From Cupriavidus neocaledonicus (GTDB lineage Bacteria > Pseudomonadota > Gammaproteobacteria > Burkholderiales > Burkholderiaceae), in assembly GCF_000372525.1 (NCBI RefSeq), contig NZ_AQUR01000079.1, positions 1 to 64,000 of the forward strand: DNA of 64,000 bases, in the 5' to 3' direction. The notes beneath the pieces were generated by a model, which was given only the letters and a program-made list of their open reading frames with translations, was not told where the DNA came from and did no database searches. Position numbers and translations under genes: made by a program. This document shows positions 15,940 to 30,010 of this stretch, piece by piece. Every line of letters begins with the position of its first letter. Position 1 is the first letter of the stretch.

Positions 15940-16844
15940 CCTTCCGACTCCGCTCCCTGCTTCCCGTGCTGCCGACGCTGCTGGCCGCCATTGCCGCGCT
16001 GCTGGTGCTGCGCCACCTGTGGGACTACTACACCGCCGCGCCCTGGACCCGCGACGGCCATGTGCGTGCCGACATCGTCCAGGTCGCGCCCGACGTATCG
16101 GGGCTGGTCACGCGCGTGCTGGCGCGCGACAACCAGTATGTCCGGGCCGGCGAAGTCCTGTTCGAGATCGATCGCGACCGCTACGCGCTCGCCCTGGAAC
16201 AGGCGCTGGCGACGCTTGCAACCCAGCGTGCCGCGCTGGCGCAGGCGCGGCGCGAGGCCGTGCGCAACCGCGACCTGGACGGCGTGGTCTCCGCCGAAGT
16301 CGCCGAGCAAGGGCGTGCGCGCGTGGAGCAAGGCCAGGCCGCGCTGGCGCAGGCGGAAGCCGCGGTGCGGCTGGCCCGGCTGAACCTGCAACGCACCAGC
16401 GTGCGCAGTCCGGTGGCGGGCTACCTCAACGACCGCCTGCCGCGGCTGGGCGACTACGTGTCGACCGGGCGACCGGTGCTATCGATGGTCGATGCCGGCT
16501 CTTTCCACGTGGAAGGCTATTTCGAGGAAACCAAGCTGCACCGCATCCACATCGGCAGTCCGGTCGACGTGCATATCATGGGCGAGCCCCGCCACCTGCG
16601 CGGCCACGTGCACAGCATCGCCGCCGGCATCGAGGACCGCGACCGCAGCGCGGGTTCCAACCTGCTGCCCAACGTCAACCCGACCTTCAACTGGGTGCGG
16701 CTGGCGCAGCGCGTGCCGGTGCGCATCGTGCTGGAAGACGTGCCGGCCGACGTGCGCCTGGTGTCGGGGCGAACCGCCACGGTGGCGGTGCGCGAAGCGG
16801 CGGCAGACCAGGACGCCGAGCGCCGCCTGGGGCCGCGATCGTGA
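15936..16844 (+). CDS. HlyD-family periplasmic adaptor subunit (AaeA-like)
   Basis: 302 residues from the ATG at 15936. One N-terminal membrane anchor (LLAAIAALLVLRHLWDYY), then the biotinyl-lipoyl half motif (RADIVQVAPDVSGLVTRVLARDNQYVRAGEVLFEID), a helical hairpin (80 to 150) and the second half (RTSVRSPVAGYLNDRLPRLGDYV). It links the FUSC pump to the outer-membrane channel encoded next. Overlaps both neighbours by 4 bp (ATGA and GTGA), supporting one operon. Confidence 0.92.
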   Translation: MTFRLRSLLPVLPTLLAAIAALLVLRHLWDYYTAAPWTRDGHVRADIVQVAPDVSGLVTRVLARDNQYVRAGEVLFEIDRDRYALALEQALATLATQRAALAQARREAVRNRDLDGVVSAEVAEQGRARVEQGQAALAQAEAAVRLARLNLQRTSVRSPVAGYLNDRLPRLGDYVSTGRPVLSMVDAGSFHVEGYFEETKLHRIHIGSPVDVHIMGEPRHLRGHVHSIAAGIEDRDRSAGSNLLPNVNPTFNWVRLAQRVPVRIVLEDVPADVRLVSGRTATVAVREAAADQDAERRLGPRS

Positions 16845-18304
16845 GGCCGCGTCGCGCCTGGGTGGCATGCCTGTGCGCATGCCTGAGTGCGTGCACGACG
16901 GTGGGACCGGACTATCGCGTGCCCGATCACGCGGCGGTGCGCGGGGCCGCTGCCAATGGGCCGTTGCAAGAAGGGCAGGCACCGGCCGTGGCGATCGCAG
17001 CCGTGCCCGACGACTGGTGGCGCCTCTATGACGACGAACGGCTCGACCGGCTCGTGACCAAGGCCCTGGCGGCCAATACCGACCTCCGCGCCGCCAGCGC
17101 CAACCTGCGTCGCGCGCTGGCGCTGCTGCACGAAGTGGAAGCCGAAAACCTGCCGCAGGGCAGCGCCGGCGCCGGCGTGTCGCGCGCGCAGCTGTCGGGT
17201 GAAAGCTATTTGCAGCAGGCCCAGCCGCCGGTGTTCAACCTGGGCGACCTGGGCCTGGGCGCGTCCTACCTGGTCGATGTCTTCGGCAAGCTGGCGCGCG
17301 CCGACGAGGCCGCGCTTGCCGGTGCCCAGGCCAGCGAGGCGACGCTGGACATGGTGCGCGTCACCGTCGCCGCACAGACCGTGCGCGCCTACGTGCAAGG
17401 TTGCGCCGCCACGCATGACCTGCACGCCGCCTCGCAGCAGCTGGCGGTGCAGCAGCGCACGCTGGATGCCATCCGCCGCCTGCTCGCCGCGGGCCGCGTC
17501 GGGCCCGCCGAGTTGGCGCGCGAAGATGCCCGCAGCGAAGCGCTGCGCGCGGCGCTGCCGCCGCTGCAAGCCGCACGCAGCGCCGCGCGCTATCGGCTGG
17601 CGCTGTTGCTGGGCCTGGCGCCGGCGGCGCTGGCGGAGGCCGAGGTGGCTTGCGATGCCGAGCCCGTGCTGCGCGCGCCGTTGCCGGTCGGCGATGGCGC
17701 CGCGCTGCTGCGCCGGCGCCCCGATGTCCGCCAGGCCGAACGCGAGCTCGCCGCCGCCACCGCGCGCATCGGCGTGGCCACGGCCGACCTGTATCCGTCG
17801 ATCCGCATCGGCGCCAGCGCCGGACTGACCGGCGTGCTGAGCCACCTTGGCAGCGGACCCACGGCGCGCTGGAGCGTGGGGCCGCTGCTGAGCTGGACCT
17901 GGCCGACCAATGGCGTGCGGCACCGCATACATGGACTGGAAGCCGCCGCGGATGCCGCGCTGGCGCGCTTCGACGGCGTGGTGCTGCGCGCGCTGCAGGA
18001 GACCGAGACCGCGCTGTCGGCCTACACGCATGAGCTGGAACGCCACGCGGCCCTGCATGCCGCCAGCGAGCACGCCGCGCTAGCTGCGCGGCAGCAGCGC
18101 CGGCTCTGGGAGGCGGGGCGCCTGCCTTATCTCGCGCAGCTCGATGCCGAGCGCGACCTCGCCGCCGCGCAGGCCGCGCTGGCGGCCTCCGCGGGCCGGG
18201 TTGCCGCGCGCCAGGTCGACCTGTTCCTGGCCCTCGGCGGCGGATGGCAGAGCGCGCGCAGGCAGGCCGCGGTCCCGCGCAAGGGCGATGAAAAAAACGA
18301 CTGA
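16841..18304 (+). CDS. NodT/OprM-family outer-membrane efflux lipoprotein
   Basis: 487 residues from the GTG at 16841, which overlaps the TGA of the adaptor gene. Lipobox in ACLSACTTVGPDYRVP. Two outer-membrane-efflux repeats: first with WWRLYDDERLDRLVTKALAANTDL, second with LLRRRPDVRQAERELAAATARIGVATADLYPSI. It provides the TolC-like exit duct for the exporter. Its last residues are Lys/Asp rich and follow the usual domain end. Confidence 0.92.
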   Translation: MRPRRAWVACLCACLSACTTVGPDYRVPDHAAVRGAAANGPLQEGQAPAVAIAAVPDDWWRLYDDERLDRLVTKALAANTDLRAASANLRRALALLHEVEAENLPQGSAGAGVSRAQLSGESYLQQAQPPVFNLGDLGLGASYLVDVFGKLARADEAALAGAQASEATLDMVRVTVAAQTVRAYVQGCAATHDLHAASQQLAVQQRTLDAIRRLLAAGRVGPAELAREDARSEALRAALPPLQAARSAARYRLALLLGLAPAALAEAEVACDAEPVLRAPLPVGDGAALLRRRPDVRQAERELAAATARIGVATADLYPSIRIGASAGLTGVLSHLGSGPTARWSVGPLLSWTWPTNGVRHRIHGLEAAADAALARFDGVVLRALQETETALSAYTHELERHAALHAASEHAALAARQQRRLWEAGRLPYLAQLDAERDLAAAQAALAASAGRVAARQVDLFLALGGGWQSARRQAAVPRKGDEKND

Positions 18305-18486
18305 ATCCTGGACAGTTAAATCATCACAGGAATAGGCCAGGGTGACTACACTTCGTCCCGTGCCGCGCCAGACACCCGGGCGCGGCACCGCCCAAAAGGC
18401 GAATCCGGACGGCGCAGGCGGCAAACCCGCCAGGCTTGCGCGGCCCATTGCGGGCCAATCGTTCCCCACCCCAAAAAACAGCACAC

Positions 18487-18828
18487 ATGCATAAAAACGC
18501 TCTCAAAGCCCTTCTTGCCACGTCCCTCTCGCTCGCAGCAATCAGCGCCGCCACTGCCGTCATGGCACAAGGCCTGAACGATCGCGGCGTTGCCGCTGAC
18601 CGCTACGGCTACGCCCTGCACAATGGCAAGCGCGATCCGTTCACCGACGGCGCGCGTGTCAACGACCAGCGCGACCCCTTCACCGATGGCGCGCGCGTCA
18701 ATGACAAGCGTGATCCGTTCACCGACGGTGCCAACCGCGCCGCCGGCCTGGAAGTTGCGGGCATGGACCGCAGCGGTGTCTCCGCGGCGCCGGCCCATCG
18801 CGGCACGCGCGCTGCCGCCGCGGCCTGA
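18487..18828 (+). CDS. Small secreted protein with tandem DPFTDGA repeats
   Basis: 113 residues. Signal peptide (about 1 to 28, ending AVMAQ). Three tandem 13-residue units centred on RDPFTDGAR lie at roughly 47 to 85, with DNA sequences that differ at synonymous positions, implying selection on the protein. An Ala-rich tail follows. The minus-strand gene at 56000 to 56371 encodes another secreted protein built on the related unit PYTDGAK or PYSEGAK. Function unknown. Confidence 0.75.
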   Translation: MHKNALKALLATSLSLAAISAATAVMAQGLNDRGVAADRYGYALHNGKRDPFTDGARVNDQRDPFTDGARVNDKRDPFTDGANRAAGLEVAGMDRSGVSAAPAHRGTRAAAAA

Positions 18829-18952
18829 TCTGGCGGCGACACCACGCTGCGTGCTAGGGATGCGCGCGCTCCGGTGCTAGATTGAGAAGGCGTGCCGCCG
18901 CCCGGCGTCGGCGCGCCTGACAAGCCACCCCACCAGACGCGAGGAGCCGCGC

Positions 18953-19288
18953 ATGTCCCTTCCCCATCTTGCTTCCGGACAGATCGCCAGCGTGCTGCCC
19001 CTGGGCGTGCGGCTGGACCAGACCGCCACCCAGGCCCTGTTCAAGGAAGGTCCCCTCGAAGTCATGCGGCTGGTGCTGAAGGCCGGCAAGCATGTGCCCC
19101 CGCATGCGGTGGACGGGCCCATGACCGTGCAATGCCTGGAGGGTGAGGTGCGCGTACGCGTGGACGGCTCCGAACGCCAGCTGCGCCAGGGCGACCTGCT
19201 GTACCTTGGGCCCTGCGTGCGCTATGACGTGACGGCGGTGTCGGATGCCTCGGTGCTGGTGACGATGGTGTTGCCGGGCAGCCTGTGA
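18953..19288 (+). CDS. Cupin-domain protein
   Basis: 111 residues forming one small beta-barrel cupin: GPLEVMRLVLKAGKHVPPHAVDGPMTVQCLEGEVRVRVDGSERQL region with a metal-binding His pair replaced in part (HVPPHAVDGPMT). A GAGGAGCC site precedes the ATG. Stand-alone cupins of this size often bind a metal or act in stress or sugar metabolism; no specific role is apparent. Convergent with the LysR gene, ending 8 bp before it. Confidence 0.8.
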   Translation: MSLPHLASGQIASVLPLGVRLDQTATQALFKEGPLEVMRLVLKAGKHVPPHAVDGPMTVQCLEGEVRVRVDGSERQLRQGDLLYLGPCVRYDVTAVSDASVLVTMVLPGSL

Positions 19289-19295
19289 TCCTTCC

Positions 19296-20180
19296 CTAAG
19301 CCCCGCGCGGCTGCCAGCGCGCGCTTGCCGCGACGAAGGCGTCGATCAGCGCCGCGACCGGCGCGCGGCGCAGCGCCGCTTCACGCACCAGCACGCCCAC
19401 CTCGCGATAGAGCGGCCCGCCCGGCAGCGGCACCTGCACCACGCCGGCCGCCTCGCGCAGCGGCACCAGTTCGGCCGGAATGATGGCGCAGCCCAGGCCC
19501 GCCGCCACCATCTGCAGGATCACCGCCGGCTCGTCCAGTTCCATCCCTTCCCTGACCCAGAGCCGCTGCCGCTTCAGGTAGCGGTCCACCAGCTGGCCGC
19601 CGGTGCTGTGGCGGTTGTAGCGGATAAACGGCAACGCCTCCAGCAGCGCGCGCAGTTCCTGCGGCGAGCCCGCCGGCCCGATGCCGACGAAGCGCTCGCG
19701 CACCAGCGGCACCCACTTCAGGTCCGGCGGCAAACCCAGGCGCGGCCGGATCAGCACGGCCACGTCGAGCTCGCGCGCATCGACCTGCGTCAGCAGCTGG
19801 GTCGACATGCCGGGCACCACGTTGACATGCGAGTCGGGGAAGCGCTGGCGGAAGTGCCGCATCGCCTCGGCCAGCAAGGTGGCCTGCACCGTCGACACCG
19901 CGCCCAGCTCGACTGGCGCCGCCTCGGCATGCGGGCCGGCGCGGTCCTTCATCGCGGCATAGAGCTCGACAAAGCGCCGCGCCTCGGGCAGCAAGCGGTG
20001 TCCGGCTTCGCTGAGCGCGACCGACTTGCCGGTGCGCTCGAACAGGCGGCAGTCCAGGTCTTCCTCGAGGCGCCGGATCTGCGTGCTGACGGCCGACTGG
20101 GTCAGCGCCAGGCGCGCCGCCGCGGCGGAAAACGATCCGGTTTCGGCAGCCGTCAGGAAGGTCTGGAAATAGCGGATCAT
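19296..20180 (-). CDS. LysR-family transcriptional regulator
   Basis: 294 residues. HTH at 1 to 60 (YFQTFLTAAETGSFSAAAARLALTQSAVSTQIRRLEEDL) and a standard co-inducer domain (GAVSTVQATLLAEAMRHFRQRFPDSHVNVVPG). Divergent from the VOC-protein gene at 20305, which it probably regulates along with itself. Confidence 0.9.
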   Translation of the reverse strand: MIRYFQTFLTAAETGSFSAAAARLALTQSAVSTQIRRLEEDLDCRLFERTGKSVALSEAGHRLLPEARRFVELYAAMKDRAGPHAEAAPVELGAVSTVQATLLAEAMRHFRQRFPDSHVNVVPGMSTQLLTQVDARELDVAVLIRPRLGLPPDLKWVPLVRERFVGIGPAGSPQELRALLEALPFIRYNRHSTGGQLVDRYLKRQRLWVREGMELDEPAVILQMVAAGLGCAIIPAELVPLREAAGVVQVPLPGGPLYREVGVLVREAALRRAPVAALIDAFVAASARWQPRGA

Positions 20181-20219
20181 CTATCGAAATCTTTGATGCT
20201 CAGGCCAAAAATGATTCGC

Positions 20220-20248
20220 TTCATATTACGGGTTGCGCTGACTACAAT
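20220..20248 (+). promoter_or_regulatory. Candidate sigma-70 promoter for the VOC gene
   Basis: TTCATA (20220 to 20225), a 17-bp spacer and TACAAT (20243 to 20248) give a plausible promoter about 57 bp before the ATG at 20305, in the divergent LysR/VOC region. Confidence 0.4.
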
Positions 20249-20304
20249 CAACCGGCAGGCCGATCCCCGGCCGGTCAGAACCTTTCCCTCCCAAAGCAAG
20301 CCCC

Positions 20305-20736
20305 ATGAGCACGACTTCGACGATCCCCTTGTTCCATCTGGCGTTTCCCGTGCGCGACCTGGCCGAGGCGCGCAGTTTTTATGGCGAACTGCTGGGCTGC
20401 CCGGAAGGCCGCAGTTCCGAAGCGTGGGTGGACTTCAATTTCTATGGCCACCAGGTGGTGGCGCACCTGTCGCCCGAGGAATGCGGCCATCGTGCCACCA
20501 GCGCCGTCGATGGCGACGACGTGCCGGTGCGCCATTTCGGCGCGATCCTGCCGATGGACCAGTGGGAGGCGCTGGCCGAACGCCTGCGCGCGGCCGGCAC
20601 CCGGTTCGTGATCGAGCCGCACGTGCGCTTCAAGGGCCAGGTCGGCGAGCAGGCCACCATGTTCTTCCTCGACCCGTCGGGCAACGCGCTCGAGTTCAAG
20701 GCCTTTGCCGACCTGAGCCAGGTGTTTGCCAGGTAG
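20305..20736 (+). CDS. VOC-family (glyoxalase-like) protein
   Basis: 143 residues: [22 protein letters not shown] is the first beta-alpha-beta module, and [15 protein letters not shown] is the second, with the metal-ligand Glu in LEFKAF. Vicinal-oxygen-chelate enzymes include glyoxalases, dioxygenases and resistance proteins; length and motifs do not resolve which. Divergent from a LysR gene. Confidence 0.88.
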
Positions 20737-20754
20737 GCCGCCAGCGCGCGGGGT

Positions 20755-21078
20755 TCAGGCAATGCGGCGCATTGCCTCGCGGATCGGCTCGGCCTCGGTC
20801 GGGCGCACCAGCCTGGCCACTTCCTGGCCGTCGCGCAGGAATACCAGCGTCGGCCACAGCTTGATGCGGAACGACCGGCCCAGCGGGCGTCCGCTGCCGT
20901 CTTCGATCTTCAGGTGGCGCAGGTCCGGATGCACGGCAAAGGCCTCGGCCAGCGCCGGCTGGGCGCGCTGGCAGTAGCCGCACCACGGCGCGCCGAACTC
21001 CAGCACGGTGGCGCCGGACAGCGTGTCCACCTCGGTGCGGGTCGGCTCGGTGGCGGCATAGTATTGGGTCATCGGCAT
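20755..21078 (-). CDS. Thioredoxin-fold protein with CGYC active site
   Basis: 107 residues. FGAPWCGYCQRAQPALAEAF gives a CxxC active site (Cys33 and Cys36), and the cis-Pro region is LWPTLVFLRDG. No signal peptide, so cytoplasmic thiol-disulfide exchange is likely. GGAAAC lies before the ATG. Slightly shorter than classic thioredoxin with a divergent CGYC in place of CGPC. Confidence 0.88.
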   Translation of the reverse strand: MPMTQYYAATEPTRTEVDTLSGATVLEFGAPWCGYCQRAQPALAEAFAVHPDLRHLKIEDGSGRPLGRSFRIKLWPTLVFLRDGQEVARLVRPTEAEPIREAMRRIA

Positions 21079-21201
21079 GGTGTTTCCTTTCGGTTGGCGC
21101 GTGATGGTGTGCCTGCCAGATTCGTTCCAGGCCGGCGCGAGGCCGACCTGAGGCGGGCAACGGCAGCAGCATGCCGCATCCGCGGCGCCACCGTGTAATT
21201 T

Positions 21202-23526
21202 CTACGCCGCCGGCGCGATTTCCCACCACGATGGCAGCAGCGCTCGCACCTCGGCCGCCGCAAAGCGGTCATCGATCAGATACAGCACGCCCTGGTCCTG
21301 CTGCGTGCGAATCACCCGGCCTGCCGCCTGCACCACCTTGCGCAGCCCGGGATACAGGTAGGCATAGGCATAGCCCTGGCCGAACGCCTGCTCCATGCGC
21401 GCGCGAAACTGCTCGTTGACGGGGTTGAACTGGGGCAGCCCCAGCGTGGCGACGAAGGCGCCGATCAGGCGCTCGCCCGGCAGGTCGACGCCCTCGGCAA
21501 AGGCGCCGCCGAGCACCGCGAAGCCGATGCCCTCGCCTCCTGCCGCAAAGGCCTCCAGGAACGCCGCCTGCGCGGCTTCGTCCATGCCCCGCGCCTGGAC
21601 CCAATGCGGGATGTCCGGGTGCGATCCGGCGAAGCGGGCGACGGCCTGCTGCAGGTATTCGTGGCTGCTGAAGAAGGCCAGGTAGTTGCCCCGGCGCGCA
21701 CGGAACTGCTCCGCCATCAGCGCCACGATGGCCGGCAGCGACTGCTCGCGCCGTGCATAGCGGGTGGAGATGCGCGCGGCAATCCGCACCGAGAGCTGGT
21801 CAGCGCGGAACGGCGATGGCACTTGCACGCGCGCGCAATCCGCCGGCAGGCCCAGCGTGTCCAGGTAAAAGCCCGCGGGATCGAGGGTCGCGGAAAACAG
21901 CGTGACCGAATGCGCGGCTGCAAGCCGCGGGCGCAGGAACGGCGCCGGGATGACATTGCGCAGGCAAAGCCGGGCATGGTGGCCGCGGCGGCGCGGCGTG
22001 CGCTGGATGTCAAACAGCGAATGGACATCGAGCTGTTCGGCCAGGCGGGCGAAATGCAGCGCGTCGAAATAGAAGCGCTGCAGCGCCGGATCGTGCGCGC
22101 CAGGATGCTCGGTCATGTAGGCCAGCGCCGCCGCACAGCATTCGTCCAGCGCGCGGCGAAAGGTCGCGGGCACTTCCGGCAGGACCTCGTAGACATCGTC
22201 GCCCTGGCGCGCGAGCGCGCTCCACTGGCGCGCCAGCCGGGCCAGCGGCCGGGATAGCAGCGCCGGCGCGCCGCGGCGCAGCTCGCGCAGCGCTTGTGGA
22301 TCGAGCTCCGCCGTGTACATCGCGCGGCCGCGCTCGACCAGGTTGTGGGCCTCGTCCACCAGCACGCTGGCGCGCCAGCCATTGGCCACGGTCAGCGCAT
22401 ACAGCATCGCGCTGCGGTCGAAATAGTAGTTGTAGTCGGCCACCACCACGTCGCTCCAGCGCACCAGTTCCTGTGCCAGGTAGTAAGGGCAGATCGCATG
22501 TTCGCGTGCGAGGTCGCGCACCGCGGCGCGGTCGCGCACCGGCATGGCGCGCGCCGCTTCGCGCGCGGCCGGCAGGCGGTCATAGAAGCCGCGCGCCAGC
22601 GGACATGATTCGCCATGGCAGGCCAGGTCCGGATGCTCGCAAGCCTTGTCGCGCGCAGTCAGCTCGAGCACGCGCAGCGGCTGCGCGCCGTGGCCGCGCA
22701 AGGCTGCGGCGGCGTGCAGCGCCACCGCGCGCCCGGTCGAACGCGCCGACAGGAAGAACACCTTGTCGAGCCGCTGGCCCGGCATGGCCTTGAGCACCGG
22801 GAACAGCGTCCCGACCGACTTGCCGATGCCGGTGGGCGCCTGCGCCAGCAGGGGGCGGCCGGCGCGGTTGGCGTTGTAGACCGCCTGCGCCAGTTCGCGC
22901 TGGCCCGGGCGGAAGCCCTGGTGCGGAAACGTCAGCTGCGCCAGCGCGGCATCGCGCGCCTGCCGGTGCGCCAGTTCGGCCCGGGCCCAGTGCAGGAAGC
23001 GCTCGCAGGACTCGACAAAGAACGCCTCGAGCGCCGACGCGTCGAAATGCGCCACCACCGGGTGCTCGCGCTGACTGAGGATGTCGAAATAGACCACCGC
23101 GATCTCCAGCCCCGACAGCCCCAGCTTGCGGCACAACAGGCAGCCATAGATCCTGGCCTGCGCCCAGTGCAGGTGGCGGTGGTTGTCCGGCACGGCGGCG
23201 TCGCTGCGGACCGTCTTGATTTCCTCCAGCCGGTTGGCAGCGGGATCGTAACCATCGGCACGGCCGCGGACATGAAGCGGACCGAAATCCGCGGACAGCG
23301 CCACCTCCGCCTGATAGCCCGCGCCGCGTCGGCCGGTCACCACCCCATGGCCGGCCACCCCCTCCTGCGCCGACGGCGTCGGCACGAAACGCAGGTCGAG
23401 GTCGCCCGCCTTGGCGGTGAACTCGCACAGCGCTCGGACGGCGACGACGTACGCGGGCTGCGCGGGCGCGCTAGGCGATGCGGGCGTGGCAGGCGTGGCG
23501 GGAGGGGGCGCGATGACGGCGGACAC
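21202..23526 (-). CDS. PD-(D/E)XK nuclease fused to XPD/DinG-type Fe-S helicase
   Basis: About 774 residues from a GTG at 23526; longer starts exist but would place the SOS box inside the gene. Residues 60 to 160 look like a RecB/Cas4-type PD-(D/E)XK nuclease: Asp91 (GRADGYD), Glu102-x-Lys104 (EEIKT) and Gln123/Tyr127 (WAQARIY). The rest is a superfamily 2 XPD/DinG helicase: Walker A APTGIGKS (230 to 237), four Fe-S-cluster cysteines (296, 303, 308, 346), DEAH at 391 to 394, and helicase C-terminal motifs including AAGRVIRTQQDQG. Probably a DNA-repair nuclease-helicase. A CTGT-N8-ACAG box lies 22 bp upstream, implying LexA control. Confidence 0.85.
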   Translation of the reverse strand: MSAVIAPPPATPATPASPSAPAQPAYVVAVRALCEFTAKAGDLDLRFVPTPSAQEGVAGHGVVTGRRGAGYQAEVALSADFGPLHVRGRADGYDPAANRLEEIKTVRSDAAVPDNHRHLHWAQARIYGCLLCRKLGLSGLEIAVVYFDILSQREHPVVAHFDASALEAFFVESCERFLHWARAELAHRQARDAALAQLTFPHQGFRPGQRELAQAVYNANRAGRPLLAQAPTGIGKSVGTLFPVLKAMPGQRLDKVFFLSARSTGRAVALHAAAALRGHGAQPLRVLELTARDKACEHPDLACHGESCPLARGFYDRLPAAREAARAMPVRDRAAVRDLAREHAICPYYLAQELVRWSDVVVADYNYYFDRSAMLYALTVANGWRASVLVDEAHNLVERGRAMYTAELDPQALRELRRGAPALLSRPLARLARQWSALARQGDDVYEVLPEVPATFRRALDECCAAALAYMTEHPGAHDPALQRFYFDALHFARLAEQLDVHSLFDIQRTPRRRGHHARLCLRNVIPAPFLRPRLAAAHSVTLFSATLDPAGFYLDTLGLPADCARVQVPSPFRADQLSVRIAARISTRYARREQSLPAIVALMAEQFRARRGNYLAFFSSHEYLQQAVARFAGSHPDIPHWVQARGMDEAAQAAFLEAFAAGGEGIGFAVLGGAFAEGVDLPGERLIGAFVATLGLPQFNPVNEQFRARMEQAFGQGYAYAYLYPGLRKVVQAAGRVIRTQQDQGVLYLIDDRFAAAEVRALLPSWWEIAPAA

Positions 23527-23547
23527 AGGCAATGGGCACAGCGAAAA

Positions 23548-23563
23548 CTGTACAAATATACAG
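23548..23563. promoter_or_regulatory. LexA-type SOS box
   Basis: CTGTACAAATATACAG fits CTGT-N8-ACAG with an AT-rich centre, the canonical LexA site of gamma- and beta-proteobacteria. It lies just upstream of the nuclease-helicase gene on the minus strand, at promoter distance; E. coli dinG, a relative, is also LexA regulated. Confidence 0.75.
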
Positions 23564-23722
23564 TAGCCACCCGGCCGAAGAACGCCCTTGACGCGGAACG
23601 GCATAAAGAAAGAGCAAATCGTTATTTCCATGTGCCCCACGCGCCGCTCTATATTGTCCGGCTCGCAAGACAACGACAAGCCGGCTTCCTGCCCGGCAGC
23701 AAAAAATGACCGGAGCCCGACC

Positions 23723-25300
23723 TTGACCTGCGGCATCACCCTCGGCGACACCCTTACCTGGCCCGCGCGCAACCTGCCGCACAAGACCGCGCTGGTCAGC
23801 GGCATCGGCGCCGGGCGGCGCACGTGGAGCTATGCCCAGCTCCACGCCGAGGTCAACCGCCACGCGCATGCCTTGCAGTCGATCGGCATCGGCAAGGGCG
23901 ACGTGGTGGCGGCCTTCCTCTACAACACGCCGGCCTTCGTCTTTGCGCTGCTGGCCACGGCCCGCCTCGGCGCGGTATTCAACCCGGTCAACTACCGCCT
24001 GGCCGCGCAGGAGCTGGCCTATATCCTCAACGACGGCGGCGCCGCGGCGGTGCTGTTCGAACGGGAAGGCGCGGCCGTCGTCGAAAAGGCCGCCGGACTG
24101 GCGCCCGGCACCACGTTGCGCGTCTATGCCGACGCCGACCCGGCGCCGGCCTTCGCCACGCACCGCCTCGACACGCTGGCGGCGCACCAGCCTGACACGC
24201 CGCCGGCGGTGAGCCTCGACGAGAACGACCCCTGCATCCTGATGTACACCAGCGGCACCACCGGCCGGCCCAAGGGCGTCATGCACAGCCATCGCAGCAA
24301 ACTGCAGCACAACGCGATGATGCACCAGGCCATGATGCTGTCGCGCGAGGACGTGGGCCTGTCGATCGCGCCGCTGAACCACACCGCCGAGCTGCACACC
24401 AGTTTCCTGCCGCGGCTGCAGGTCGGCGCCACCCAGGTGCTGCAGCGACGCTTCGATGCGGGCGAGGCCTGGCAACTGGTCGAGGCCGAGGGCGTGACGC
24501 ATTTCTTCGCCGCGCCGACCATGGTCGGCATGCTGCTCGACCATCCGGACGCCGGCATTCGCGACCTGTCCTCGCTGCGTCTGGTGGAGTACGGCGGCGC
24601 GTCGATGGCGCCGCACCTGATCCGCGAATGGGACCGCAAGGTCGGCGCGGGGCTGGTGCAGGTCTACGGCACCACGGAAATGGGCCCGTGCATGTCGGTG
24701 CTCTACCCGCACGAACAACTGAGCCGCGCCGGCTCGGCCGGCCTGCCGGCGCTTGGCCACGAACTGGTGGTGGCGAGGCTGCGCGAGGACGGCGCCCCGA
24801 CCGACCCGGCGCAGCCTTGCGCACCGGGCGAAGTCGGCGAAGTGCTGGTGCGCGGCCCGTGCATGATGCAGGGCTACCTGAACCGCCCGGATGCCAACGC
24901 GCGCGCGCTGGCGCACGGCTGGTACCACACCGGCGACCTCGGCAGCGTGGATGCCGACGGCTACCTGTGGATCCGCGACCGGATCGACTACATGATCAAT
25001 TCCGGCGCCGAGAACGTCTATCCGCGCGAGGTCGAAGACGCCCTGATCGAACATCCCGGCGTGCTCGAAGTCGCGGTGCTGGGCGAGCCCGATCCCACCT
25101 GGGGCCAGGTGGTCGGCGCCTACGTGGTGTCGCGCGGCGAGGCGGCGCCGAGCGCGCAACAGCTCGATGCCTTCCTGCTGCAAGGCGACCGGCTCGCTGC
25201 CTACAAGCGCCCGCGCCGCTACCATTTCGTGGAAGCGCTGCCCAAGACCACCAGCGGCAAGATCCAGAAACACCTGCTGCGCGCGGGCGGCACCGCCTGA
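23723..25300 (+). CDS. Acyl-CoA synthetase (AMP-forming ligase)
   Basis: 525 residues if translation starts at the TTG at 23723, which has GGAG 7 nt upstream; the frame is open further upstream without homology. ANL-superfamily motifs: A3 YTSGTTGRPKGVMHSH, A5 VYGTTEMGP, A7 HTGDLGSVDADGYLWIRDR, A8 region with NVYPREVED and the catalytic Lys in TTSGKIQKH. It activates a carboxylate (fatty or aromatic acid) to its CoA thioester. Single gene, divergent from the SOS-controlled helicase. Confidence 0.9.
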   Translation: MTCGITLGDTLTWPARNLPHKTALVSGIGAGRRTWSYAQLHAEVNRHAHALQSIGIGKGDVVAAFLYNTPAFVFALLATARLGAVFNPVNYRLAAQELAYILNDGGAAAVLFEREGAAVVEKAAGLAPGTTLRVYADADPAPAFATHRLDTLAAHQPDTPPAVSLDENDPCILMYTSGTTGRPKGVMHSHRSKLQHNAMMHQAMMLSREDVGLSIAPLNHTAELHTSFLPRLQVGATQVLQRRFDAGEAWQLVEAEGVTHFFAAPTMVGMLLDHPDAGIRDLSSLRLVEYGGASMAPHLIREWDRKVGAGLVQVYGTTEMGPCMSVLYPHEQLSRAGSAGLPALGHELVVARLREDGAPTDPAQPCAPGEVGEVLVRGPCMMQGYLNRPDANARALAHGWYHTGDLGSVDADGYLWIRDRIDYMINSGAENVYPREVEDALIEHPGVLEVAVLGEPDPTWGQVVGAYVVSRGEAAPSAQQLDAFLLQGDRLAAYKRPRRYHFVEALPKTTSGKIQKHLLRAGGTA

Positions 25301-25479
25301 CCCCGCTTCAGGCCAGGCGCGCGTCGCCGCGGCCCACTGGGCATCGGGGGTTCGATGCGGACCAGGTAGCGCTTCAGCGGCAGGCCGGCCGTGCCCCGGG
25401 TGGACCAGCGTTTTCAGGCATGCCAGCCTGATTCCAATAGGGCTCGTGCCGCGCCCTGGCCTGGCAAGCGCCGGCTTGC

Positions 25480-26436
25480 CTACAGTCCACGGCCGCGCCG
25501 GCGCGCCTTGCCGACGGACAGCGCCATGCGGGCCGGCCGGCTCCGCCGTGGCGGCGTCGCGGCGGCGGCTTCGGCAGGCGCCGCGCCGGCCTGCTCCCGG
25601 TACTCCGCCAGCAGGCTTTCCCGCTGGCGCACCCGTTCTTCCAGTACCGCGATTGCCTGGGCGAGCCGGGTCATCTCGCTGCCCTGGCGCGATGCCGCCT
25701 CCGCGGCCCGGCTCAGTCGCTCGACCGCCGCCTTGCGTTCGGCCTCGATCAGCTTTTGCGCTTCCCTGGATGCCACGCGCGCGGCATCCAGTTCCAGCGC
25801 CATGCGGCGTTCATTGGCAGCGGTGCGCTGCATCAGCGTTTCGCGCTCCTGGTCCCATGCTGCTCGCCGGGCCTCGAAATCGTTCTGCATCGCCTCGCGC
25901 GCGGCCAGCGCCGAGGCGTGCTCGGCGCGCAGCGCCTCAGCCTGCTGCTGCCATGCGGTCGCAGCGGTTTCGGCGCGAGCGGCACGCTCCGCCGCCTCGT
26001 CGCGCGCCCGCGTCAGTTCGGCCATGGCAGCCTCCGCGCCTTCGAGCCGCGCCTGCATGACCTGGCGTTCCTGTGCCAGCGCTTCGCGCTCCTGCTGCAG
26101 CGCCGTGCCGGCCTCCGCCAGCGCGGCTTCCCGCTGCGCCAAGGCGGCTTCGGCCGAAGTCCTGGCGCTTTGCAGCGCCGCCTCCCACAAGTAGCGCGCG
26201 GCTTCGGTGACCGGCTCCGGGCAGCCTGGCGCCGGCGCCAAACCCTGCGGATCCTGGATGCGCCCGCCCAGCGCGGCAAACCAGCCATCCAGGTGCGGGC
26301 TGACCGTGTTCGGCGAGCCTCGCCCGAGATGCAGGCGGATGCGTTCGATGGTGGGCCGCTGGCCGGCCTTGAGCAGGCTGTCGGCGGCCTGCCAGACGTC
26401 ATCGCGGGTAATGCCTCGGCTGCGGAGCGTTTCCAT
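25480..26436 (-). CDS. KfrA-family DNA-binding coiled-coil protein
   Basis: 318 residues. The N-terminal domain (about 1 to 115) is the KfrA_N type: TRDDVWQAADSLLKAGQRPTIERIRLHLGRGSPNTVSPHLDGWFAALG. Residues 120 to 290 are a heptad-rich Ala/Glu/Arg/Gln coiled coil, followed by a basic tail. KfrA proteins are plasmid-encoded nucleoid-like repressors that bind their own promoters. Here the gene is in a chromosome-like context and diverges from a tyrosine recombinase gene 113 bp away, with palindromes between. A remnant of the same pairing occurs at 3413 to 6455. Confidence 0.88.
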   Translation of the reverse strand: METLRSRGITRDDVWQAADSLLKAGQRPTIERIRLHLGRGSPNTVSPHLDGWFAALGGRIQDPQGLAPAPGCPEPVTEAARYLWEAALQSARTSAEAALAQREAALAEAGTALQQEREALAQERQVMQARLEGAEAAMAELTRARDEAAERAARAETAATAWQQQAEALRAEHASALAAREAMQNDFEARRAAWDQERETLMQRTAANERRMALELDAARVASREAQKLIEAERKAAVERLSRAAEAASRQGSEMTRLAQAIAVLEERVRQRESLLAEYREQAGAAPAEAAAATPPRRSRPARMALSVGKARRRGRGL

Positions 26437-26466
26437 GGGTTGGGATCCGGCGTTTTTTAAAAGTCA

Positions 26467-26514
26467 CAAATAAGGTTCGATAATGAAGACTTATCGACTG
26501 TTATTTCTTATTTG
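26467..26514. promoter_or_regulatory. Nested palindromes in the KfrA/recombinase divergent promoter
   Basis: Outer arms CAAATAAG (26467 to 26474) and CTTATTTG (26507 to 26514) enclose inner arms TCGATAA (26477 to 26483) and TTATCGA (26491 to 26497) with a 7-nt spacer. The CGATAA/TTATCG core is the same as in the operator at 4695 to 4724. A further pair, TATGAT (26517 to 26522) and ATCATA (26537 to 26542), follows. Likely KfrA-binding and promoter sites. Confidence 0.65.
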
Positions 26515-26548
26515 CGTATGATATATTACAGCATACATCATATTTAAT

Positions 26549-27670
26549 ATGATCAAGATTCGAGACGCCCACGAGGCATACTTTCCACCGATTCCCTCCG
26601 ATGTCGACTTACCGGCCCCGCTCCGCACGTCCCAACTGGATCCTCTCGCCGAGCAGGCGGCCAACGCGTTGCGCCAGGAAGGCGAATCCCGAAACACGGT
26701 GGCAAGCTACCGGTCCGCATTGCGCTACTGGTCTGCCTGGTATGCCCTGCGCTACCGGCAGCCGGTGCGGCTTCCGCTTGCGCCCGCCGTCGTTATCCAG
26801 TTCATCGTCGACCACGCCACGCGCCAGACGCCGCAGGGCCCGGTTTGCGAGCTGCCCGCGGCGATCGACCAGGCGCTGATCGCTGACGGATGCAAGGGCC
26901 GACCCGGCCCGCCCGCGCTGTCCACGCTGACCCACCGGCTCGCGGTCATCGCCAAGGCCCACCAGCTGCAAGGCCTGCCCAACCCGTGCGCCGATGCCAG
27001 CGTGCGCGAACTGATGGCCAGCACCCGGCGTGCCTATGCGCGCCGCGGCCACCGCCAGGCACGCAAGGCCGCCCTGACGCGCGCGCCGCTGCTGCGCCTG
27101 CTCGATACCTGCGATGGCTCGCTCGCCGGGCTGCGCGACCGCGCGCTGCTGTTTTTCGCGTGGGCCAGCGGCGGGAGGCGGCGCTCGGAAGTCGCGCGCG
27201 CCACCATGGACCAGCTCACGCGGGTGGGGCCTGGAGACTTTGTCTATGTGCTGGGCTGGTCGAAGACCAACCAGTCAGGCCGCGAGCACGCCGATGCCGC
27301 CAAGCCCGTCACCGGCGCCGCCGGGCAGGCGCTGGAGGCATGGCTGGCCGCGGCGGGGATCGAACACGGCCCGCTGTTTCGCCGTATCCGGCGCGGTGGA
27401 CATGTGGGAGAAGGCTTGTCGGATGCGGCGGTCAGCCGCATCGTCAAGGCGCGTTGCGCGCTGGCGGGGCTGGATGGCGACTATTCCGCGCATTCGCTGC
27501 GCTCGGGCTTTGTCACGGAAGCGGCGGCGCAGCAAGTACCGCTGGCTGAAACCATGGCCATGACGGGCCATGCCAGCGTATCGACAGTGGTCCGTTATTT
27601 CCGCGCGGCGGATGCCCGGCGCTCGCGCGCGGCTGACCTGCTGGCGCCGAATGCCACCGACAGCCCCTGA
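26549..27670 (+). CDS. Tyrosine recombinase / site-specific integrase
   Basis: 373 residues. SAM-like core-binding domain (about 30 to 160, with QEGESRNTVASYRSALRYWSAWY) and a catalytic domain with Arg211 (GRRRSEV), His315/Arg318 (HSLRSGF), His341 (MTGHASV) and Tyr350 (VVRYFR), so all key residues are present. It has no DUF3701 extension and is thus not a simple copy of the enzyme at 4752, but it has the same divergent KfrA partner and operator core. Substrate site unknown. The AT-rich leader before the ATG lacks a strong ribosome binding site. Confidence 0.9.
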   Translation: MIKIRDAHEAYFPPIPSDVDLPAPLRTSQLDPLAEQAANALRQEGESRNTVASYRSALRYWSAWYALRYRQPVRLPLAPAVVIQFIVDHATRQTPQGPVCELPAAIDQALIADGCKGRPGPPALSTLTHRLAVIAKAHQLQGLPNPCADASVRELMASTRRAYARRGHRQARKAALTRAPLLRLLDTCDGSLAGLRDRALLFFAWASGGRRRSEVARATMDQLTRVGPGDFVYVLGWSKTNQSGREHADAAKPVTGAAGQALEAWLAAAGIEHGPLFRRIRRGGHVGEGLSDAAVSRIVKARCALAGLDGDYSAHSLRSGFVTEAAAQQVPLAETMAMTGHASVSTVVRYFRAADARRSRAADLLAPNATDSP

Positions 27671-27711
27671 GCGACTTGCCATGTCCGCCAACCATGCGCC
27701 GCGGCCGGCGC

Positions 27712-27725
27712 AAATACGGGTATTT
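27712..27725. repeat. Short palindrome after the second recombinase
   Basis: AAATAC-GG-GTATTT lies 42 bp after the recombinase stop. Its right part, ACGGGTATTTCG (27716 to 27727), recurs exactly at 3387 to 3398, just beyond the KfrA remnant of the other module. Possible shared recombination or binding site. Confidence 0.35.
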
Positions 27726-27918
27726 CGCTAGCCGGCGCCTCTGGCTCGCCCTGCGGGGCCTGCCTATACTGGCAGGCGCGCGGGACAGTGCCGGCACAGG
27801 CCGGACGCCGCGCGCGGAACATCCGGCAGACAGTCACCGCCGCCCAAGCGCTGGCGGTACAGGCGCGCGACCACGCACCGCTGCCCGGACCCGATCAAGT
27901 GGAAACGCGGAGATGGGC

Positions 27919-28338
27919 ATGCCCAACGAACAATTCCTCGCCACGCAGGAAACGCGCCGCTCAGGCCTGAAGGCCCTGCGCGCCGCCCTGCTGCAGGTTC
28001 ACAAGGAAGTCATCGGCCATGACCGGGCACAGTATGAACGGCTGAACGGTCCGATTCCGGCCGGCCTGTTTGTCCAGCTGGTGACTGAAGACAACTACTT
28101 CCGCTGGCTCGACCCGCTGTCGCGCCTGATCATCGAGATCGACGAAGAGCTCGAGGCCAAGGAGCACCACGACGACACCTGCCGTGCCGTCGGACGCGCC
28201 GCCGAAAAACTCTTCAGCGACGGGGCCGATCCCGGGTTCCGCAAGCGCTACCAGGAAGCGCTGCAGGACGAATCGGGCGTCATCGTCGCGCACGGGCGGC
28301 TGATGTCCGTCATCGGGCAGCTGCGCCAGCTGCCGTAG
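27919..28338 (+). CDS. Conserved-looking protein of unknown function
   Basis: 139 residues from the ATG at 27919 (GGAG ends 6 nt upstream); ATG 27913 is an alternative. Almost entirely helical and acidic, with SGLKALRAALLQVHKEVIGHDRAQYERLNG and IIEIDEELEAKEHHDDT; no signal peptide or membrane segment. I do not recognise the family. A GCCTGCC/GGCAGGC inverted repeat (27758 to 27764 and 27771 to 27777) surrounds a TATACT, a possible promoter with operator. Confidence 0.65.
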   Translation: MPNEQFLATQETRRSGLKALRAALLQVHKEVIGHDRAQYERLNGPIPAGLFVQLVTEDNYFRWLDPLSRLIIEIDEELEAKEHHDDTCRAVGRAAEKLFSDGADPGFRKRYQEALQDESGVIVAHGRLMSVIGQLRQLP

Positions 28339-28376
28339 CGCGCCCGCGCTTCCCGGACGCTTTACAGCACCGCGCT

Positions 28377-29015
<639 letters not shown>

Positions 29016-29169
29016 TTAGACCGCGCTGCCGTCGCTGCATTCCGGTGAGTCGCCCCGGCCCGCTGCGCCGGGCCAGGCCATGGTCGTGCGGGTGCCTATA
29101 TCGGGACAAAACAAGGACATATTTAAGAAGTGTCCGATATTCAGATGAGAAACAACGGAATACATTGTT

Positions 29170-29265
29170 CTTGCACCCGACCCTGGGTGCCCGATAGAGC
29201 CAGGTTGCCCCCCTTCCTGGCTCCTTACGTTGCCACGATGGTCCCCGCCATCGTGGCATTTTTTT
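29170..29265 (+). ncRNA. Candidate small RNA with three stem-loops and intrinsic terminator
   Basis: Hairpin 1: GCACCC (29173 to 29178) with GGGTGC (29185 to 29190). Hairpin 2: GAGCCAGG (29197 to 29204) with CCTGGCTC (29216 to 29223). Hairpin 3: GCCACGATGG (29232 to 29241) with CCATCGTGGC (29248 to 29257), followed by seven T (29259 to 29265), a strong intrinsic terminator for the plus strand. No plus-strand protein gene lies upstream that could use it. A TACATT at 29161 could be a -10 box, giving an RNA of about 95 nt. Confidence 0.55.
29232..29265 (+). terminator. Strong intrinsic terminator
   Basis: 10-bp perfect stem, 6-nt loop, then A and seven T. Ends the candidate sRNA and lies 22 bp before the convergent tetR-type stop. 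Confidence 0.8.
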
Positions 29266-29287
29266 ATGCGGTGGCTGCAGACCCCGG

Positions 29288-29932
29288 CTACAGGCCCTTC
29301 TCGACCATATCGAGCACGCGCTGGCCGAGGATCTCCGCCTGCTCGCTGGCCCGGCCGCGCAGCGGGCCGTCGATCAGCAGGATCGCCAGGCCGTGCACGG
29401 CCGACCACGCCAGGTATTCGGCGCCGGGCCGGCGCTCGGCCGGCAGCACTCCCGCTTCCACCAGCTGGTCCAGCGCCGCGCCCAGCAACTGGAACGGGTT
29501 CAGGCCGCTGTTGCCCGCCTTGGCCGGGTCGGCGTCGTCCTCGACTTCGTCCGGCACCGAGAATGCCGTGCGGAACAGGCCGGTTTCCGTCAGCGCAAAG
29601 CGGAGGTAGCCGGTGCCGACCGCACGCAGGCAGGCGCGCGCATGCGCGGCGGCGCCGCGGCCCGGGCGCAGCCCGCCGATTTCGGTTTCCATGGCGATCG
29701 CCAGCGCAGACAGGGCCGAGGCGCGCACCGCCTGCAGCAGGTCTTGCCGGCTGGCGAAATGGCGGTAGGCGGCATTGGGCACCACGCCGGCGCGCCGCGT
29801 CGCCTCGCGCAGCACGATGGCGTCGGGGCCACCCTCGCGCGCCAGGTCGATGCCGGCTTCCAGCAGCGCGCGGCGCAGGTCGCCATGGCGGTAGGTCGCC
29901 CGTGCGGGCGGTGCGGAGGCTGCCCGGTTCAT
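29288..29932 (-). CDS. TetR-family transcriptional regulator
   Basis: 214 residues. HTH at about 13 to 60 (YRHGDLRRALLEAGIDLAREGGPDAIVLREATRRAGVVPNAAYRHFASRQDLL region) and a TetR C-terminal helical ligand domain. It probably represses itself; a near-palindrome GTG-x-ACA-x-TGT-x-CAC occurs 51 to 65 bp upstream. Target beyond itself unclear, as the next gene upstream (cardiolipin synthase) is on the same strand. Confidence 0.9.
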   Translation of the reverse strand: MNRAASAPPARATYRHGDLRRALLEAGIDLAREGGPDAIVLREATRRAGVVPNAAYRHFASRQDLLQAVRASALSALAIAMETEIGGLRPGRGAAAHARACLRAVGTGYLRFALTETGLFRTAFSVPDEVEDDADPAKAGNSGLNPFQLLGAALDQLVEAGVLPAERRPGAEYLAWSAVHGLAILLIDGPLRGRASEQAEILGQRVLDMVEKGL

Positions 29933-29953
29933 GCGGGCCTCCCGGAAAACGAA

Positions 29954-30010
29954 TGACAGTTCATGATGTGCGGAGTCTTATAGTGAACAGTGTACACAAT
30001 CAAACTGTCA
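29954..30010. promoter_or_regulatory. TetR-type operator region
   Basis: GTGAACAGTGTACAC at 29983 to 29997 is a near-perfect 15-bp palindrome, and wider arms TGACAGTT (29954 to 29961) and AACTGTCA (30003 to 30010) flank it. Both lie directly upstream of the tetR-type start. Confidence 0.55.

Follow-up and report, generated by a model that had tools for sequence, protein, structure and literature searches.

A predicted EndoDinG-type nuclease-helicase of Cupriavidus behind a candidate LexA box, and the linkage of its relatives to FAN1

The nuclease-helicase gene and its domains

The window, by which we mean the whole stretch of 64,000 nucleotides analysed here, contains a gene whose product is predicted to join a PD-(D/E)XK nuclease domain to an XPD-like Fe-S helicase, and a CTGT-N8-ACAG motif stands before it (Table 1). 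A fusion of this kind under an SOS box is what the original prediction had proposed: the open reading frame and the box lie at the positions it gave, both domains, the active-site residues and the four cysteines are indeed found in one chain, and its numbering of Asp91, Glu102, Lys104, Gln123 and Tyr127 is exact, with H60 and E74 completing the motif. The GTG start appears fairly sound, because its context, [GT]TGTCCG, recurs at 9 of the 12 other Cupriavidus loci compared. The nearest named relatives also belong to Cupriavidus (five loci, 84-95% protein identity). A full-length match (residues 28-768, E 9e-97) is provided by PDB 9KQH, the DinG of Finegoldia magna with ssDNA and ADPNP, which has the same domain order from end to end at about 30% identity; in the open-licence literature we found no publication naming this code, nor, among the papers listed, one that presents the Finegoldia protein.

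Table 1. Position of the nuclease-helicase gene, its domains and the candidate box in the window
Feature	Position	Strand	Details	Basis
EndoDinG-type nuclease-helicase gene (predicted)	21202..23526	-	774 aa; GTG start at 23526, stop codon 21202-21204	ORF, orthologue start context, full-length match to PDB 9KQH
N-terminal PD-(D/E)XK nuclease domain (predicted)	22939..23451	-	residues 26-196; H60, E74, D91, E102, K104, Q123, Y127	invariant residues, modelled fold
XPD-like SF2 helicase (DEAD_2, Helicase_C_2)	21205..22938	-	residues 197-774	domain profiles, structure comparison
Fe-S cluster segment	22489..22641	-	C296 to C346, incl. C303, C308	four Cys identical in 79/79 orthologs
LexA (SOS) box CTGTATATTTGTACAG, candidate	23548..23563	-	contains -10-like TATATT; ends 21 nt before start codon	motif scan, orthologue conservation

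Modelled alone (mean pLDDT 91.5), the N-terminal domain adopts the PD-(D/E)XK nuclease fold that had been predicted for it, and this is of the Cas4/MGME1/RecB type. Its best structural match is the N-terminal part of 9KQH (Z 19.5), followed by SSO0001 (4IC1; Z 13.6), which we take to be a Cas4, MGME1 (12.3), Cas4/Cas1/Cas2 (11.8), EXO5 (10.7), LHK-Exo (10.2), AddAB (9.6), RecE (9.5), and lambda exonuclease and RecB (8.9 each); Foldseek agrees with these matches. All seven residues of the motif are identical in the 79 readable orthologs (79 of 80 loci; L080 was omitted, its start choice having given a 26-aa fragment). The link to PD-(D/E)XK nucleases by sequence is weak, so that the case is carried by the fold and the residues: with the domain alone, 3 of 40 family members match Pfam PDDEXK_1 (best E 1.8e-4), the window's own domain not being among them, and a profile of the domain finds 4IC1 at E 0.065. 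Three further cysteines are conserved in this domain (C34 in 75/79, C132 and C174 in 79/79). They are thus invariant or nearly so in the proteobacterial proteins, are lacking in the Finegoldia protein, and may mark an extra metal site (residues 34, 132 and 174, within 22927-23526 on the reverse strand). Cas4/Dna2-type nucleases with an Fe-S cluster of their own have four cysteines around the nuclease core (PMC11981726).

The helicase part is complete, with Walker A, DEAH box, Helicase_C_2 and the four Fe-S cysteines. The full-length model (pLDDT 88.7) aligns with 9KQH across 718 residues (Z 34.1) and with XPD structures at Z about 20-29; these motifs together with the XPD-like fold place the protein among the XPD/Rad3 Fe-S helicases. 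From the fold, the residues and the cysteines, we consider it very probable that both enzyme activities, nuclease and helicase, are present. E. coli DinG and YoaA are likewise Fe-S helicases of the XPD family and, to our knowledge, have no PD-(D/E)XK domain. E. coli DinG is controlled by LexA. The protein scores below the cut-offs of the corresponding models: 78 bits against 598 for the DinG equivalog NF008729, 96.5 against 680 for the YoaA equivalog NF053712 and 52 against 547.7 for ExoDinG, TIGR01407. ExoDinG, in which the N-terminal part is a DEDD (DnaQ-type) exonuclease, is ruled out, since the N-terminal fold matches PD-(D/E)XK nucleases. The only other Helicase_C_2 match in the same genome is a YoaA above its cut-off; no LexA-like box within one mismatch occurs in the 4 kb inspected there. 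EndoDinG is a subgroup of DinG-like proteins defined, in a 2025 review, with the same residue set as found here, and exemplified by the DinG of Bdellovibrio bacteriovorus HD100; its traits include a shortened arch and the loss of strand beta-7 in motor domain 2, and the sole activity reported for the class is that of an endonuclease, from unpublished data on the Bdellovibrio protein (PMC11981726). Like that protein, the product of the window's gene has an N-terminal PD-(D/E)XK domain with H, E, D, E and K, four Fe-S cysteines and an XPD-like helicase. By sequence and model it thus fits an EndoDinG, with an N-terminal nuclease of Cas4/MGME1 type on an XPD-family Fe-S helicase working 5'-3', its polarity and substrate being presumed from relatives.

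The LexA box and the FAN1 gene upstream

CTGTATATTTGTACAG is the sole perfect CTGT-N8-ACAG match in the window. Such a match alone is weak evidence, because 0.46 are expected by chance per window and 38 of 100 shuffles hold one. In the whole genome (6.77 Mb, 107 contigs) there are 33 perfect sites against 24 for a reversed-pattern control, which means that many of them are due to chance. Of the remaining 32, 22 were inspected. AT-rich boxes precede lexA, recA and two imuA genes, all over the model cut-off, and also fragments of uvrA and of a UvrD/PcrA-like helicase, both cut by the stretch read and below the cut-off. The AT-rich core of the window's box resembles those at lexA, recA, the uvrA fragment and the two imuA genes; this likeness to the genome's own SOS boxes, together with conservation before orthologous genes, makes it credible. 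The box contains a -10-like hexamer, and no full sigma-70 promoter was recognised by a scan. The two imuA genes of this one genome (L002 and L012) each have a perfect box of their own.

The orthologs examined across GTDB were the best 80 of 583 confirmed matches. In all 14 Cupriavidus loci among them, and in four further loci (two Caballeronia, one Burkholderia sp. and one Burkholderiaceae), a perfect box lies upstream of the nuclease domain at a distance of at most 400 nt. At 53 of the 80 loci a FAN1 gene lies directly upstream of the helicase; both of the FAN1 neighbours scanned carry FAN1_HTH, FANC_SAP and VRR_NUC, and one matches the crystal structure 4R89 of the Pseudomonas aeruginosa FAN1 at E 1e-199. 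The box is perfect (8/8) at 19, 7/8 at 26 and missing at 6 of the 51 assessable FAN1-linked loci (L034 and L056, at contig edges, are outside this count), and three of the 19 perfect ones (L073, L082 and L096) are GC-rich and probably due to chance. At the 27 loci lacking an adjacent FAN1 the corresponding numbers are 18, 5 and 4. Among the loci of both kinds, boxes of at least 7/8 are missing, for example, in Noviherbaspirillum, Alcanivorax and Nitrosovibrio. In the downstream flanks of the 80 loci, used as a control, 2 perfect sites occur in 221,858 positions, i.e. 0.0035 per 400 nt, and sites of at least 7/8 at 0.057 per 310 nt; among shuffled windows a perfect site is present in 0.04% (helicase) and 0.29% (FAN1), and a 7/8 site in 7.3% of those for FAN1. 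At such rates the perfect boxes greatly exceed what chance would give, which cannot be said of a single 7/8 box.

The SOS box of the original prediction is thus a perfect match that stays with the gene in orthologs, and LexA control of the gene unit seems to us highly probable. From these sequence patterns we also infer binding by LexA, induction by DNA damage and co-transcription with FAN1. At two Caballeronia loci (L039 and L070) the closest start codon in frame falls within the box, and at L088 an ATG follows it by 5 nt; these cases suggest leaderless, operator-overlapping starts.

Prediction of LexA sites for genes of this sort goes back to 2012, when 'Helicase c2' genes of beta-proteobacteria, of species including Ralstonia eutropha and Cupriavidus taiwanensis, were listed (PMC3323433); they probably belong to the same family, for which the main text gives only the name 'Helicase c2', with VRR and 'nuclease domain' absent from it. 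In the review of EndoDinG (PMC11981726), sections 2, 3.7 and 3.10 mention neither SOS control of the subgroup nor a FAN1 operon. A search of the open-licence literature, which is no proof of absence, found among the papers listed no description of LexA control of FAN1 or of a FAN1-helicase operon. Neither half of the original claim is therefore new, since the fusion fits a described class and the LexA sites had been predicted. The connection with FAN1, which it had missed, is the more informative part: the enzyme class is known and its control of a known type, and what is added is the pair with FAN1, repeatedly separated with the box retained.

FAN1 linkage in Burkholderiaceae and Pseudomonadaceae

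The EndoDinG gene is present in 74 of 150 sampled Burkholderiaceae genomes, and at 68 of these 74 a perfect box stands at the head of the unit. Where FAN1 is adjacent (43 loci), the box precedes FAN1 in 39 and the helicase has none of its own in any; L164 and L177 lack a perfect box before FAN1, and at L162 (contig edge) and L202 (partial FAN1 match), both included in the 43, it could not be assessed. Where FAN1 is not adjacent (31 loci), a perfect box lies upstream of the helicase gene in 29, the exceptions being L161 and L203, and its core contains five or more A/T in 23 cases and four in 6. In five genomes (G556, G467, G548, G506 and G539) the EndoDinG match breaks in two close to residue 280, immediately ahead of the Fe-S segment, while the reading frame stays open; a small insertion may be the cause.

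FAN1_HTH was not found in 26 of the 30 other Burkholderiaceae genomes that lack the linkage, including all 13 Cupriavidus tested. Profile searches for VRR_NUC gave no match in the window's own genome, unlike that of P. aeruginosa, and none over the cut-off in 36 genomes of the genus, one of which has two sub-threshold matches. The genus of the window thus appears to have lost FAN1 and to carry the box in front of the helicase gene. FAN1 is found elsewhere in the genome in G470, G507 and G496; in the latter two a perfect box stands some 50 nt ahead of its domain, and the helicase of G496 has none. In G512 (L199), counted among the 29 boxed loci lacking an adjacent FAN1, a fragment of FAN1 comprising its first, N-terminal domain remains between the perfect LexA box and the EndoDinG start. 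This locus is a transitional form of FAN1 loss.

On a tree of 130 proteins, made by a quick method with SH-aLRT support, the boxed stand-alone state requires three changes, a number that the starred branches make necessary. The rows are 50 of the 74 Burkholderiaceae genes, 79 GTDB loci (L080 omitted) and the window, so that some genes occur twice; in ten rows FAN1 and a perfect box are both lacking. The direction of change is FAN1 loss for G512, because the fragment remains, and we infer the same direction for the two other changes.

Bacterial FAN1 is known from crystal structures and for the unhooking of crosslinks. In many genomes the gene immediately upstream of EndoDinG encodes a relative of the P. 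aeruginosa enzyme (PA1865, PDB 4R89). FAN1 was found in 352 of 398 sampled Pseudomonadaceae genomes, and at the best 30 of these 352 loci, chosen by likeness to the P. aeruginosa protein, a box near the FAN1 start is present throughout, 7/8 in 27 and 8/8 in 3. One of the perfect ones, CTGTATGCATGAACAG, belongs to a FAN1 93% identical to the P. aeruginosa protein (L103). A single 7/8 box does not greatly exceed chance; for Pseudomonas the argument is that the same near-box turns up again and again at one position. At 23 of the 30 loci EndoDinG lies no more than 1.5 kb downstream; at the other seven (L110, L115, L118, L124, L126, L127 and L131) FAN1 has a LexA-like box and no EndoDinG within that distance. 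In P. aeruginosa, FAN1 cuts 5' flaps (PMC9635880), PA1865 and PA1866, the latter possibly its EndoDinG, are raised by UV-C and are listed outside the LexA, Prt and Alp regulons, and PA1865 goes up with ciprofloxacin and down with hydrogen peroxide (PMC12796719). The conserved box offers a possible simple explanation of the induction of both genes by UV-C and of PA1865 by ciprofloxacin.

Possible role and competing explanations

We propose, with a probability of about 0.7, that the gene encodes an SOS-induced nuclease-helicase belonging to a FAN1-linked module for the repair of crosslinks or stalled forks, and also working without FAN1. The nuclease-helicase reading is supported by the nuclease fold with its invariant, intact site, the complete Fe-S helicase, the conserved boxes at the head of the unit and the adjacency of FAN1, whose linkage has changed repeatedly, as far as sequences and models tell. 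LexA on the box over the promoter would keep the gene low until DNA damage, through RecA-driven cleavage of LexA, released it. The helicase would then track along ssDNA at stalled or crosslinked forks, unwinding the duplex, and the nuclease would cut the strand so exposed, which might open blocked or crosslinked ends and trim them ready for recombination or for the filling of gaps. Where FAN1 is the neighbour, as is common among relatives, the gene would share one SOS operon with FAN1, which would unhook interstrand crosslinks; where FAN1 is absent, as in Cupriavidus and part of its relatives, the nuclease-helicase would remain under LexA by itself. For the common arrangement, we put processing of crosslinks or stalled forks with FAN1 as the partner at roughly even odds.

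A narrower proposal, to which we give slightly less than an even chance, is that FAN1 and EndoDinG form a bacterial SOS-induced module for interstrand crosslinks, FAN1 unhooking them and EndoDinG unwinding and trimming, in parallel to the FAN1-FANCJ pair of Arabidopsis, where FAN1 and the Fe-S helicase FANCJB share a crosslink pathway (PMC6550410). The box before fan1 would then also account for the induction of PA1865/PA1866, and the stand-alone boxed form would have arisen three times with LexA control kept. Against the preferred reading of an SOS-induced, FAN1-linked nuclease-helicase stand the repression of PA1865 by hydrogen peroxide, the chicken DT40 cells, in which FAN1 and FANCJ are synergistic and not epistatic (told in PMC6550410), the loci with missing boxes, the mostly 7/8 boxes of Pseudomonas and the lack of a recognisable sigma-70 promoter.

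It is rather unlikely, though of more weight than the other alternatives, that the protein is a general SOS-induced helicase for forks or R-loops in the manner of DinG and YoaA, its nuclease only trimming and its link to FAN1 reflecting shared regulation and no crosslink pathway. The helicase core is the same as that of DinG and XPD, and LexA governs DinG in E. coli. The DinG of P. aeruginosa, PA1045, is also LexA-controlled (PMC12796719). Moreover, the gene persists where FAN1 was lost, and in a genome whose only other Helicase_C_2 protein is a YoaA with no box in the 4 kb inspected, it could fill the place of DinG. Set against this are a nuclease active site identical in 79/79 orthologs and the close linkage to FAN1 in both beta- and gammaproteobacteria. 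The same identity, and a fold matching those of active nucleases, make it very unlikely that the N-terminal part is a relic that binds DNA and is inactive as a nuclease, as could be argued from a PDDEXK_1 profile that so few members, and not the window's own domain, reach, and from the fact that activity of the window's protein is predicted only.

A role in CRISPR type IV systems or in anti-phage defence was raised by PADLOC, whose model PDLC01439 ('typeIV_DinG') matches residues 194-768 at E 9e-121 (402 bits). We reject it on context, as highly improbable: the NCBIfam Csf4 model gives 12.7 bits against a cut-off of 400, the genome has no Csf2 match and positions 16000-30000 no CRISPR-like array, the Fe-S cysteines are intact and the gene often lies beside the repair gene FAN1. 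With this model, automated annotation may wrongly assign repair genes of this kind to CRISPR type IV. That the box serves the divergent neighbour, its nearness to the helicase being incidental, is scarcely credible. It does lie between divergent genes, the neighbour being an AMP-ligase in the window and, at four Cupriavidus loci, an exonuclease III-like repair gene; the reading was rejected because the neighbours change and the box stays with the helicase or with the FAN1-helicase unit.

If the preferred reading of an SOS-induced, FAN1-linked nuclease-helicase holds, bacterial FAN1 and a nuclease-helicase would form an operon probably controlled by LexA, which gives a definite hypothesis for the role of FAN1 in vivo. 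The box of the FAN1 operon would be a possible explanation of damage-induced P. aeruginosa genes listed outside the known regulons, and genomes with the boxed helicase and no FAN1 would be natural experiments on the helicase acting alone.

Some features of the neighbourhood may be added. The exonuclease III-like gene across the box at L026, L028, L029 and L032 was recognised by eye, with relatives found by tblastn, and one box might there serve two repair genes. A thioredoxin-like gene (20755-21078, reverse strand) follows the helicase on the same strand, is found downstream at 8 of 14 Cupriavidus loci and is possibly co-transcribed. A KfrA_N plasmid-type protein gene (25480-26436, reverse strand) adjoins that of a phage-type integrase (26549-27670, forward strand), which may indicate the edge of a mobile element. 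At 18621-18731 (forward strand), three direct repeats with a spacing of 39 nt lie inside a small protein gene, whose product looks secreted by eye.
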